Origin: Methanothermobacter sp.
GTDB taxonomy: Archaea > Methanobacteriota > Methanobacteria > Methanobacteriales > Methanothermobacteraceae
DNA: 64,000 bases
Direction: 5' to 3'
Assembly: GCF_030055435.1 (NCBI RefSeq)
Contig: NZ_JASFYG010000007.1
Span: 1-64,000, forward strand
Shown here: one piece after another, positions 1 to 42,062 of the stretch
Layout of the letters: each line of letters opens with the position of its first letter
How positions within the stretch are numbered: position 1 is the first letter of the stretch
Notes under the pieces: generated by a model
What the model saw: the letters and a program-made list of their open reading frames with translations, nothing else
Told to the model about the DNA's origin: nothing
The model's database searches: none
Position numbers and translations under genes: made by a program

Positions 1-593
1 CCACTCTGGTTAACGTTGCGGATGTGGTGGCGGATACCTACAACCCGAACCCTGATAAGAGCGCCAATGCCACTGTAACAGTTAACCCAAGGGCAGAGCT
101 CATCATTAACAAGACAGTGGATAGAAGGGCTGTGCGTGTGGGTCAGAACGTAAGGTTCACTATAACAGTAACCAACAATGGACCCGACACAGCACTCAAC
201 ACAATGGTTACCGACAGGCTGCCAGATGCCATGAGGTACATATCCTCCAATGCCACCAGGGGTTCATATAACCCTGCAACTGGTGTCTGGATGGTAGGCG
301 ACCTCCCAGCAGGCTCAAGCGCGGTCCTTGACATGGTGGTCCAGCTCATAAGGCGCGGCACATTCGTGAACGTTGCAACCGTGAGTTCAGGTTCAAGTGG
401 GGGTAACAACACGACTGATGTGGAGATTGATGTTGAACCATCACCAGGTCCAGGTCCATCTCCGGGACCATCACCTAGACCTCAACCAGGACCGGGAACC
501 GTACCAATGAAGCCAACAGGAGCACCTCTAACTGCATTTATTGCAGGAATGCTTCTTGTGGCAGCAGGTTCAGCGATATCAAGGAGAAAATAA
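1..593 (+). CDS. DUF11-repeat surface protein, C-terminal part (5' end outside window)
   Basis: The reading frame is open from base 3, so this is the 3' end of a longer gene. What remains is the tail of one repeat, then a complete DUF11-type beta domain (from about AELIINKTV to VEIDVEP) with the usual VTNNGPDTA core, a Pro/Gly/Ser-rich stalk (PSPGPGPSPGPSPRPQPGPG), a VPMKPTGAPL motif, one hydrophobic helix and a short basic end (SRRK). This is the architecture of a large cell-surface protein anchored at its C-terminus. The VPxxxTGAP motif before the helix recurs in the surface protein at 39774-40712, which lies beside a sortase, so sortase anchoring is inferred. The ligand or role is unknown. 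Confidence 0.85.
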   Translation, partial: TLVNVADVVADTYNPNPDKSANATVTVNPRAELIINKTVDRRAVRVGQNVRFTITVTNNGPDTALNTMVTDRLPDAMRYISSNATRGSYNPATGVWMVGDLPAGSSAVLDMVVQLIRRGTFVNVATVSSGSSGGNNTTDVEIDVEPSPGPGPSPGPSPRPQPGPGTVPMKPTGAPLTAFIAGMLLVAAGSAISRRK

Positions 594-38578: not shown

Positions 38579-38659
38579 TCCTTCACATACATGAGGGTAA
38601 CCTCCGCAGTTGGGTTCAGATTCCCAGACTTTACAATCAATCCTTCACATACATGAGGG
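38579..38659. repeat. 19-bp direct repeat at the 3' end of mptD
   Basis: TCCTTCACATACATGAGGG occurs at 38641-38659, where it encodes the end of MptD, and exactly again at 38579-38597, downstream in the spacer. The starts are 62 bases apart. Confidence 0.88.
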
Positions 38660-39002
38660 GATATCTCAGTTCATCAAGGTACTCGAGGCAGACAGTAATC
38701 CTTGATGAACCATATTCCACCGTTAACCTCACCCTTAGCATTTCCCCTGTGAGAGAGGCATAACCGAATTCTCCAGCAGCCTCCCTTACCATATCCCTGT
38801 CTATATGGACCTCCGCATCCTTGATTGCTGGCTGAAGCTTTATGGATTCTGCAATTGCACCCTCAAGGCCGTCAACGGTTTCAAGGTTAACAGGGGTTCC
38901 GACGAACTGGTGGAAAAGGGCACCCATACTTATGCCACCCTCAAATATGGCTCTTTCCCGGTCTGATAGATTTGAAAAGTACTCTTCTCCCGGTTCTATC
39001 AT
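38637..39002 (-). CDS. mptD: Archaeal dihydroneopterin aldolase (MptD)
   Basis: MptD cleaves 7,8-dihydroneopterin to 6-hydroxymethyl-dihydropterin in the pathway to tetrahydromethanopterin. The short protein matches the family through LSDRERAIFEGGISMGALFH, followed by QFVGTPVNLETVDGLEGAI and YLDELRYPLMYVKD at the C-terminus. I chose the ATG at 39002 (MIEPGEEYF, 121 residues) because AGGTG lies seven bases upstream; a frame starting at 39020 overlaps the sortase stop. GTP cyclohydrolase III of the same window makes a GTP-derived intermediate of a different branch (flavin/F420). Confidence 0.82.
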   Translation of the reverse strand: MIEPGEEYFSNLSDRERAIFEGGISMGALFHQFVGTPVNLETVDGLEGAIAESIKLQPAIKDAEVHIDRDMVREAAGEFGYASLTGEMLRVRLTVEYGSSRITVCLEYLDELRYPLMYVKD

Positions 39003-39019
39003 TTTAAACACCTGATTCA

Positions 39020-39754
39020 CTACAGTCCAAATATTGAGTTAAATTCAATGAGCTTCTCTGATATGAATTCTGGCGGAATAGGGAATATGTAAGCCAGCAA
39101 CAGAAAGAGTGTGAGGCTTATTACCGCTGCAAGGAGAAGCCTCCTATCTTCATAAACAGGATAGAGTCTGGTGATCAAAAGACCTCCCCCAAGGAATCCA
39201 AGTATTATGAAGAGCGAATAGTACCTCTTGGGGTTCTCCACCTTGAGATTTCTCTGGTAGGGCTCCATATCCTCAAGCTGACACTCCACTATCAGCCTCT
39301 CCCTTGTTGATCCAAGGGGGTGGCATGTGATGAGAAATAGCCTCGCCCCCTGATTCACTGGGATCTGGTAGGATGCTGGTACGATGAATGATCGATTAAC
39401 CCTGTAACTCGCAAGGCCAACACCTGGCCAGTTAAGACGAACCTCATCCCCTGGCTTCAACTTATCAAGCTTCAGGAAGGGTGAACCGTAGAGTGTCCTG
39501 TGCCCGAAGAGTATGACGGTTCTGTTACCAGGGGGATAGGACATGGGTTCATGGTAGACTCCATAGAAAACGGATCGGTTGTTGATGGTCTCCTGGAGGT
39601 TAATGGATGGTATCTCAATTACCGGCGCCCTGATGTCAGGGTTCTGAACAATTACCTGTGAGGAGTAGAAACTCACCTCAAGAAGGGCGTAGAGTGACAC
39701 TATGAACATGCCTGCAATTATAAGAAAAGTTGCCAGCCTCATGAATGTCCCCAT
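39020..39754 (-). CDS. Archaeal sortase (transpeptidase)
   Basis: A sortase domain with the catalytic His in ILFGHRTLYGSPFLKLDKL (H85), Cys in LFLITCHPLGSTRERLIVE (C144) and Arg (R153) is followed by two C-terminal membrane helices; one N-terminal helix (residues 6-25) also anchors it. Sortases cut a C-terminal sorting signal and link the protein to a cell-surface acceptor. The adjacent upstream gene encodes a secreted protein with a TGAP-type sorting tail. A second ATG four codons in, preceded by GGGG, is an alternative start. The acceptor in a pseudomurein wall is unknown. Confidence 0.9.
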   Translation of the reverse strand: MGTFMRLATFLIIAGMFIVSLYALLEVSFYSSQVIVQNPDIRAPVIEIPSINLQETINNRSVFYGVYHEPMSYPPGNRTVILFGHRTLYGSPFLKLDKLKPGDEVRLNWPGVGLASYRVNRSFIVPASYQIPVNQGARLFLITCHPLGSTRERLIVECQLEDMEPYQRNLKVENPKRYYSLFIILGFLGGGLLITRLYPVYEDRRLLLAAVISLTLFLLLAYIFPIPPEFISEKLIEFNSIFGL

Positions 39755-39773
39755 AAAAAATTAAGGTGGATGA

Positions 39774-40712
39774 TTAACGTATGATCCTTGTGTAGGCAAC
39801 TGCGGCTGTAGTCACAAGCACACCTATCACCAGTGGACCGTAGGGGGCACCCGTTTTAGCACCTGGAACAGATGATGAACCGGTTGTCCCCTGAAGAGTG
39901 CCTGGCGGGTAATACCCCCCACCACTGGTTGAACCGTTACCCCCGCTTACCTTAGCAGGCCATTCATAGGTGTATACAAACCTCTGTGAGGTCTCGGGGT
40001 CCATTGTGACATCCCATGCAGCAACCTGTGTGCTCACAAAGAGATCATCATCCACAAAGGCTTTTGGTGAACTGTAAACGAGCTTTGAGTTTGTAGGAGC
40101 AATGGGGGCCCTCACAATACCTGAAACCTTTTCATTATCGATGTTGATCAGAGTGAAACCAAAGGTTCCCTTCCAGTATTTGAGGTCCAGTGATGGGTTT
40201 AGGACCTCTATTTCATTGGGCATGAACCATGAGGACATGAGGCCTGGTTCATTTATAAGTGACCAGTAGTTGCTGTCATCTGACTCAACGTTAACGATGT
40301 AAGTGGGTATCTCACCCATCTCACCTGTGGCCCTCAGGCCAAAGGAAACGGTTTTTGTCTCCCCAGGCTTCACCTTCCAGCCATAGTCACCTCCGAGTTC
40401 AGGCGTCCTTGACTTGACCATTTTAACTGCCGCTGGATCCGTCCACTGGATGAGCCACTTAATCGTGTTGTTCTCTGAAAGACTTCCCTGGTATACTTGT
40501 CCTATCTTGAAGTATTGGACATTGTTGTCATTGTTCTTTATCTTCACAGTTATAACAGCGGTCAGGTCCTTCAACCTGAAGCTGGTTGCAGATGGTTTTT
40601 CAGAAACCCAGGTCTCCTTGGCGGCTGACCCTGTATCAGGAACTCCCACAATGGAAAGCATGAACACAGCAGCTATAGCAATGTACACCCATTTTTTCAT
40701 AAACATCCCCAC
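39774..40712 (-). CDS. Secreted surface protein with sortase-type C-terminal signal
   Basis: No family is recognised for the main domain. The protein (312 residues) has an N-terminal signal peptide (KKWVYIAIAAVFMLSIVGVP), a mostly beta ectodomain with repeated aromatic strands, a Gly/Ser-rich linker (GGNGSTSGGGYYPPG), then VPGAKTGAPYGPLVIGVLVT, a hydrophobic helix ending YTRIIR. The VPxxxTGAP motif, helix and basic end have the form of a sorting signal. It lies 19 bases upstream of the sortase in the same operon, so it is its probable substrate. This is inferred from position and motif. Confidence 0.75.
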   Translation of the reverse strand: MGMFMKKWVYIAIAAVFMLSIVGVPDTGSAAKETWVSEKPSATSFRLKDLTAVITVKIKNNDNNVQYFKIGQVYQGSLSENNTIKWLIQWTDPAAVKMVKSRTPELGGDYGWKVKPGETKTVSFGLRATGEMGEIPTYIVNVESDDSNYWSLINEPGLMSSWFMPNEIEVLNPSLDLKYWKGTFGFTLINIDNEKVSGIVRAPIAPTNSKLVYSSPKAFVDDDLFVSTQVAAWDVTMDPETSQRFVYTYEWPAKVSGGNGSTSGGGYYPPGTLQGTTGSSSVPGAKTGAPYGPLVIGVLVTTAAVAYTRIIR

Positions 40713-40751: not shown

Positions 40752-42062
40752 TCAGCCGTATATTCTCTGCAGCTCCCGGATCATCCATTCAGGGGCGTTC
40801 TGTGTTGGCACGGTCAGAACGATGCTGTTCATGTTCTGTATCAGGAAGAGGACATCCTCTCTGGGGACTTCAAGTATTATGAGGTAGTTGGCATCCAGTT
40901 CTCCCAGATTTGATGACCTCTCATAATCAGAAAGCCTTATACCGTAGTTCTGGAGTATAGCGTTGATTTCGGCTTCATTCAGGCCACCGGAGGCAGCTGC
41001 CCTCAGGAGCTGCTCCACATCTGTCGATGATGTCCTCTCATTTTCACTCTGTGAGGTGATGGTGTTCAGTGTTAATCGTTGGCTGTTGAGTATCCGCGCA
41101 TCCACTGTACCGCTATCCTTGGATCTGAGAATCGCAAGCACAGTCGCCCCACTTATCCTTGGTGTTGACGTTGCAGTTGATGTATTGTTTCCGGTGGCGT
41201 TCTGGTTGAGGTAGACGTCGACCATGTTACCGACACTTATAAGGCCACCTGCAGCCTGCAGCCTTGTGATCATTATTGGGACGGCAACGGTATCAGGGGT
41301 CTGGATCTGTGTATTTGAAAGTACGGTTGCATCGGCTTGGCTAACAAATTTCTTTGCATCAGCCACCTTCATTATCACACGCTTTTCCTGGCCGTTATCT
41401 GTGTAATTAACCATAACCCTACCGACACGGTCCTTCTTGATATTTATCTGCTGGTTTTGATAGGTACGCCACGACTGTGTTGCGGGACCCACAACGTCAA
41501 CTGCTAGGGCCTCTTCTGGTGTAACAGCGGCATCTATCTGCGCAAGGATGGCTTGTTTCTGGGGATCAGTTGCAAGGGGACCTTTGAAGAGTGCGTTCAC
41601 CTCAGCGATTTTAGTGGCCTTGGCGTTCTGCAGCACCTCCTGGTATGGTTGATAGACCAGGAAGTAGTAGCCTGCACCAGCGAGAACCATGAGAATAACA
41701 CCAAATACAAGGGCACCAACGAGGGTTTTCTGATCTTCTTCCGGAATTTTTCGACCTATACCCCCAGATGGACCTCCAGGTCGTGTAGGTGGGGGTGTAA
41801 GTCTGGGCTTGGGCTTTTCATCACCCTTGAGAGGTTTTTCAGGGGGTTTTCTGACCTTTGACTCCTCACGGGATTTCAGCCGTGGCCTTGGCTTTGGCAT
41901 TGGTCTGGGTTTTTTCTTATCCGAGTCCCCACCACCACCAAATTTACCCACAAGCCCTTTGAGTCTGTCCCCAATTTTTGAGTCATCTTTTCCTCTGTTT
42001 TTCCGGAGATCAGGAGGGTTATTCTTCTTATCCTTGTCATTACCTTTAATCTTATCGAGCAT
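40752..42062 (-). CDS. DUF515-like membrane protein with a CpaB/SAF-like ectodomain
   Basis: The first 110 residues are charged and Pro/Lys-rich (DLRKNRGKDD, KKKPRPMPKPRPRLKSRE), followed by one membrane helix (LVGALVFGVILMVLAGAGYY, about 115-134). The large C-terminal part contains LQAAGGLISVGNMVDVYLNQ and, further on, ISGATVLAILRSKD. These resemble the RcpC/CpaB pilus-assembly SAF region (AGG-x-I-x-x-G-x-x-VDV-x-L). The protein is assigned to the methanogen DUF515 group by memory. It starts at an ATG overlapping the pssA stop by 11 bases. A role in surface-structure assembly is inferred. Confidence 0.65.
   Translation of the reverse strand: MLDKIKGNDKDKKNNPPDLRKNRGKDDSKIGDRLKGLVGKFGGGGDSDKKKPRPMPKPRPRLKSREESKVRKPPEKPLKGDEKPKPRLTPPPTRPGGPSGGIGRKIPEEDQKTLVGALVFGVILMVLAGAGYYFLVYQPYQEVLQNAKATKIAEVNALFKGPLATDPQKQAILAQIDAAVTPEEALAVDVVGPATQSWRTYQNQQINIKKDRVGRVMVNYTDNGQEKRVIMKVADAKKFVSQADATVLSNTQIQTPDTVAVPIMITRLQAAGGLISVGNMVDVYLNQNATGNNTSTATSTPRISGATVLAILRSKDSGTVDARILNSQRLTLNTITSQSENERTSSTDVEQLLRAAASGGLNEAEINAILQNYGIRLSDYERSSNLGELDANYLIILEVPREDVLFLIQNMNSIVLTVPTQNAPEWMIRELQRIYG

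Follow-up and report, generated by a model that had tools for sequence, protein, structure and literature searches.

A candidate C-terminal sorting signal and a conserved putative partner sortase in pseudomurein archaea

The window analysed here, a 64,000-nucleotide stretch of a Methanothermobacter sp. genome, carries on its minus strand four adjacent genes. In the window annotation their order is: a gene for a DUF515/RcpC-CpaB-like membrane protein (40752..42062; PF04415, 87.3 bits; PF16976, 34.7 bits), a gene for a 312-aa surface protein (39774..40712, hereafter the partner), a gene for a 244-aa sortase (39020..39754, hereafter the window-type or W sortase) and a gene for an archaeal dihydroneopterin aldolase (38637..39020; PF04038, 143.2 bits). 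The DUF515 and partner genes are separated by 39 bases, and the sortase gene follows downstream of the partner gene after a gap of 19 bases (39755-39773). The start of the aldolase gene overlaps the sortase stop, and the aldolase is probably functionally unrelated to the sortase. On the plus strand, positions 3..593 encode the last 196 aa of a giant surface protein built of DUF11 repeats (PF01345, 105.9 bits). This protein is cut because the window starts at a contig end (C7:1). A 2431-aa open frame of DUF11 repeats is found at C4:1, and the rest of the giant protein probably lies on this end of contig C4, with an assembly break within the repeats between C4 and C7.

Both surface proteins end in a similar way. 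The partner ends with VPGAKTGAPY and the DUF11 protein with VPMKPTGAPL, each followed by a hydrophobic helix and a basic end. The two putative sorting signals, delimited by matches to the tail profile described below, are SSVPGAKTGAPYGPLVIGVLVTTAAVAYTRIIR (39777..39875, minus strand) and GTVPMKPTGAPLTAFIAGMLLVAAGSAISRRK (495..590, plus strand). The original prediction had placed a sortase with His85, Cys144 and Arg153 beside one of two proteins sharing this tail, 19 bases away; its coordinates, both tails, the gap and the three residues were all confirmed by translation and homologue alignment.

The W sortase matches PF04203 with 61.8 bits (Pfam cut-off 26.6), and its likely start is the second Met, at 39742. 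It consists of an N-terminal membrane helix, a sortase barrel bearing His85, Cys144 and Arg153, and two C-terminal membrane helices, which in the AlphaFold2 model (pLDDT 85.5) fit two membrane spans. The catalytic His, Cys and Arg show no variation in 13 aligned homologues. When the model was compared with the PDB by Foldseek, the best matches were sortases (E 6.5e-10, probability 1.00), the top one being the class E enzyme SrtE of Thermobifida fusca, and the best PDB match by sequence was a class C sortase (8t28). By family, catalytic residues and modelled fold, the window gene is a real sortase with predicted transpeptidase activity. It reaches no bacterial class cut-off among the NCBIfam class models, so its specificity is not readable from its class.

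The partner is composed of a signal peptide, two beta-rich regions, a Gly/Ser-rich disordered linker, the sequence VPGAKTGAPYG, a hydrophobic helix and a basic end. Its structure model (pLDDT 64) places strands at residues 45-129 and 175-251 and a helix at 292-311, with low confidence for residues 255-300; a fold search with this model gave no match at E <= 0.001. T287 and G288 are unchanged in 11 homologues, and the partner proteins have a tail subtype of their own, VPx[K/R/A/P]xTGx[P/A], in most cases with [Y/W]G directly after it. In the partner family, residues 203-218 hold a near-invariant AP[IV]xPxNSKL motif; it includes a conserved Lys and may mark a pilin-like cross-link site.

Counting motifs at the DNA level was abandoned as a way of finding further tails. 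The TGAP pattern occurs at 72 sites, against 55 for the reversed control, and the signal is inseparable from background unless position and frame are considered. Read in frame, TGAP gives only two tails with helix and basic end, those of the window. Examination of 40 stretches, taken from 58 VPxxxTG sites without a stop, was also carried out. A third tail, VPMQETGAS (C2:40179-40271), is borne by a 223-aa DUF11 protein of the same genome. A profile of the three tails returned exactly three strong matches there (E 9e-20 to 3e-17, the next at 0.28), as can be expected of a model built from these same three, and no fourth tail protein was found by this search. A 508-aa DUF11 protein of the same genome (C6:31000-33500) bears no tail signal; thus, DUF11 and the tail are separable.

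The same profile (A1) detected tails at E <= 0.01 in 22 of 150 genomes of the order, 21 of them besides its own. Widening it over two rounds, to 40 and then 43 rows, raised this to 85 of 150 genomes at E <= 0.1 and then to 119 of 151 at E <= 0.01; these later counts are not independent, since matches from the preceding rounds went into profiles A2 and A3, whereas A1 derives from the window's genome only and is independent. Tail-bearing genomes contain from 1 to 37 matches each (151 genomes of the phylum), and all translated matches stand at frame ends. The loci fetched contain 14,625 unique frames. Of these, 103 are matched by the tail profile at E <= 0.01, and in every case the match ends no more than 20 aa before a stop; a reversed profile and five column-shuffled profiles had 0 matches in the same frames at this threshold. 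As the loci were mostly fetched on account of a match, it is the C-terminal position that is informative here and not the number of matches.

T and G are present in all 102 aligned unique tails and in the 103rd, which has a longer end; they were also the sole invariant columns among the 43 aligned tails. Such invariance is expected of a cleavage site. The other positions are conserved to lesser degrees: P at +3 in 93 of 102 tails, V or I at -5 in 84 (V alone in 67), Q or K at -2 in 81, M at -3 in 77, P at -4 in 67 and A at +2 in 38. At least two Lys or Arg residues occur within the last 8 residues of 99 of the 103 unique tails. The putative signal, order-wide in its distribution, has the consensus [V/I]-P-M-[Q/K]-x-T-G-x-P followed by a hydrophobic helix and a basic end. 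The tails depart from L-P-x-T-G, the LPXTG_anchor model TIGR01167 matching 1 of 43 at E <= 0.01, and no Pfam or NCBIfam model covers them, at most 4 of 43 matching any one model at this threshold (NPXTG, best 0.0009). Their nearest weak family matches include the sortase signals NF033846 (NPXTG) and TIGR01167. In form, with its C-terminal T-G, hydrophobic stretch and basic end, the predicted signal is an LPXTG-like anchor. The genome-wide search called for by the original prediction led to a third protein in the same genome, and the stretches examined in genomes of the phylum gave 103 unique tails, so that further proteins with the motif do exist. The shared T-G tail with helix and basic end proved real, and VPxxxTGAP, the form first proposed, turned out to be a local version of a wider M[QK]xTGxP motif.

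A search of 150 genomes detected sortases in 118, and these belong to two main types. The W type is present in 117 of 151 genomes, with 78 to 388 bits against the W profile. The S type, about 200 aa long and scoring about 45 to 58 bits, is present in 19 genomes, behind an MscS-like gene where examined; the S sortase of the window's genome is at C6:78880-79254. The S sortases (18 proteins and that of genome G150) read TCYPPGxxxAAWIT, with Trp/Ala where a catalytic Arg would stand. Genus g15 has yet another, third kind of sortase, of about 320 aa, whose N-terminal region is long.

Over the 151 genomes, tail and W sortase are both present in 109 and both absent in 24, which makes 133 in agreement, 12 genomes per result set having been placed by exclusion. 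The W sortase alone was detected in 8 genomes (G012, G015, G026, G070, G079, G086, G087 and G105) and the tail alone in 10 (G007, G018, G019, G024, G025, G044, G057, G067, G108 and G135). Completeness of at least 90% and contamination of at most 5% are reached by 91 genomes; the tail was found in 76 of them and a sortase profile match in 75. The mismatches among these good genomes are G025 and G067, with a tail and no detected sortase, and G012, with a sortase and no detected tail; each is in about 110 or more contigs. Neither sortase nor tail is present in any of the 20 genomes of genus g14, to which we take Methanosphaera stadtmanae to belong, and both are absent from the well-assembled G011. 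As these amount to about two loss events, one genus and G011, the shared absence is supportive, not conclusive.

The gene neighbourhood gives a second line of evidence. A scan of named genomes with one peptide pattern gave 70 records with a W sortase; all its matches came from Methanobacteriaceae or from archaeal records without placement, and no Methanopyrus was recognisable in the phylum set. The aldolase gene was found in 67 of these 70, the DUF515 gene in 64 and a tail-bearing partner in 6. The DUF515 protein looks like a standing companion of the W sortase; being CpaB-like, it may assist in the wall or membrane, as a possible accessory factor in anchoring. By our own count of the surveyed genomes, the partner adjoins the W sortase in 19: 8 of the window's genus, 4 of g2, and genomes of g3, g5, g16, g17 and g19. 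It does not stand beside it in the g7, g10 and g11 loci readable that far, nor in G141. In G150 the distance from the partner to the W sortase is about 290 kb, and to the S sortase about 5 kb. The partner was considered as a defining part of the system and dropped, as 64 of the 70 loci gave no partner while tails persist. Being beside the W sortase only in some lineages, it appears as a lineage-specific substrate, and gene adjacency is accordingly the weaker evidence. The link between sortase and tail proposed in the original prediction is supported by partial microsynteny and by shared presence and absence.

The tails might instead be substrates of the S-type sortase, the W enzyme serving only its neighbouring partner, for example in a pilus-type system. 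All 19 genomes with an S sortase have tails, the partner gene of G150 is near the S sortase, and under the narrow profile this assignment was favoured, since its 22 of 150 genomes were nearly the S set. It was dropped once the broader profiles showed tails without S. Of the 119 genomes with tails, just 19 also have an S sortase, and with about 100 lacking it, it cannot be the general tail enzyme. That the S proteins read AAWIT in the position of the catalytic Arg also argues against this assignment, which we regard as quite unlikely.

The nature of the cargo also speaks for a sortase system. Seven of ten scanned tail-bearing proteins contain DUF11, in up to 10 copies; one of the seven also has a von Willebrand A (VWA) domain and one Big_1 repeats. 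Of the other three, one gave a weak Chlam_PMP match only and two gave no match. Judged by their sequences, the tail-bearing proteins look like adhesins. In strain CaT2, a nonsense mutant of the adhesin MTCT_1020 (3,162 aa) showed significantly reduced aggregation, and the end of this adhesin was read as a membrane anchor by the authors, according to the available part of PMC6759345. A 3202-aa frame of G144 at 1,013,789 fits MTCT_1020 and matches the tail profile with 40.1 bits; in the near-identical stretch of G148, the tail of this type of adhesin reads GKVPMKPTGAPLALLVLGILLVAAGYFKRNG. The CaT2 aggregation adhesin carries the tail.

The authors' reading of the CaT2 adhesin agrees with another explanation, that the tails are plain membrane anchors whose motif is kept for membrane or Sec reasons, without transpeptidation. 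A helix and a basic end would suffice for this purpose. However, all 103 tails keep T-G, which borders the helix on its outer side, and the sortase-free genus g14 lacks the tail although M. stadtmanae, taken as its member, has been reported to possess adhesin-like proteins. For this species, Table 1 of PMC2812497 gives 0 sortases and 37 adhesin-like proteins. Only a slim chance is therefore left to plain anchoring. Processing of the tails by another enzyme such as an archaeosortase, with attachment to lipid as described for other archaea in the available parts of PMC12617251 and PMC7157517, is very improbable, since sortase signals are among the weak family matches closest to the tails, and PF09721 matches 3 of 151 genomes (1 above cut-off, 0 in the window's genome), a weak point being that the Haloferax volcanii control was also unmatched. 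The exosortase/archaeosortase-like protein above the Pfam cut-off is found in one genome of the order (G141, C10:202001-202531).

Taken together, these features suggest that a housekeeping sortase, the W enzyme, probably cuts M[QK]xT|GxP and moves adhesins to the pseudomurein envelope. The surface proteins would leave the cell by way of Sec, and the C-terminal signal, with its motif, hydrophobic helix and basic end, would keep them in the membrane. Cys144, aided by His85 and Arg153, would then cut between T and G, and it would be the W sortase, not another enzyme, that makes this cut. The cut protein would be kept as a thioester on the sortase and transferred to an amino group of the envelope, most likely in the pseudomurein peptide. 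The original prediction held that a pseudomurein archaeon would need an acceptor different from that of Gram-positive bacteria, and such a putative non-murein acceptor is reasonable. With more reserve, we lean towards the fuller proposal that pseudomurein archaea have their own single conserved sortase, which recognises M[QK]xT|GxP and couples adhesins by a covalent bond to a pseudomurein amino group, in parallel to bacterial LPXTG anchoring. The peptides KVPMQPTGAPL and SVPGAKTGAPYG are candidate sortase substrates of the tail type.

Sortases have been recorded in these organisms before. In Table 1 of PMC2812497, M. thermautotrophicus has 2 sortases with 0 LPxTG proteins, and M. ruminantium has 1 of each; two Methanothermobacter species have 2 sortases each in the available part of PMC3087415. 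The presence of sortases without LPxTG proteins in M. thermautotrophicus would be explained by a tail signal of their own. In the available part of a 2025 pangenome paper (PMC11915815), cluster C (RcpC/CpaB and 'Sortase E', the latter being the W ortholog) marks pseudomurein archaea and is judged probably not to be part of pseudomurein synthesis; that part gives no substrate signal, and one is defined here. Our search of the literature on sortases of pseudomurein archaea and methanogens, in which subscription papers were mostly outside the search and others were seen in part, found no paper defining this signal.

Genome papers on methanogens recorded sortases with hardly any LPxTG proteins, which left these enzymes without substrates, and the signal offers between 1 and 37 candidates per tail-bearing genome, including the CaT2 aggregation adhesin. 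With it, covalent anchoring to pseudomurein can be put to a direct test, and it offers an attachment route for the adhesins of gut and rumen methanogens. If true, this would be an enzymatic covalent attachment of proteins to an archaeal wall polymer.

The closest parallel is the LPXTG/sortase A system of Gram-positive bacteria, which has the same C60 fold, the His-Cys-Arg residues, a C-terminal T-G with helix and basic end, and adhesin cargo. It differs in that the signal here is M[QK]xTGxP, which lacks the LP pair and has M at the place of L and Q or K at that of P; moreover, the wall is of pseudomurein and not murein, and two additional membrane helices stand at the C-terminus of the enzyme. 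Class C (pilin) sortases are anchored in the membrane at their C-terminus, a trait which the W sortase shares along with its best PDB sequence match. However, it remains below the class C cut-off (NF033745, 32 bits against 160) and most genomes have no linked pilin-like gene. The class E sortases of actinobacteria recognise an LAxTG signal; this class provides the best structural matches of the W sortase, but the score with its NCBIfam model (NF033747, 34.5 bits) is far below the cut-off of 160. Finally, the archaeosortase/PGF-CTERM system also sorts archaeal proteins by a C-terminal signal that contains a helix and a basic end. Its enzyme family is unrelated and its signal is PGF, whereas the tails described here carry an invariant TG.
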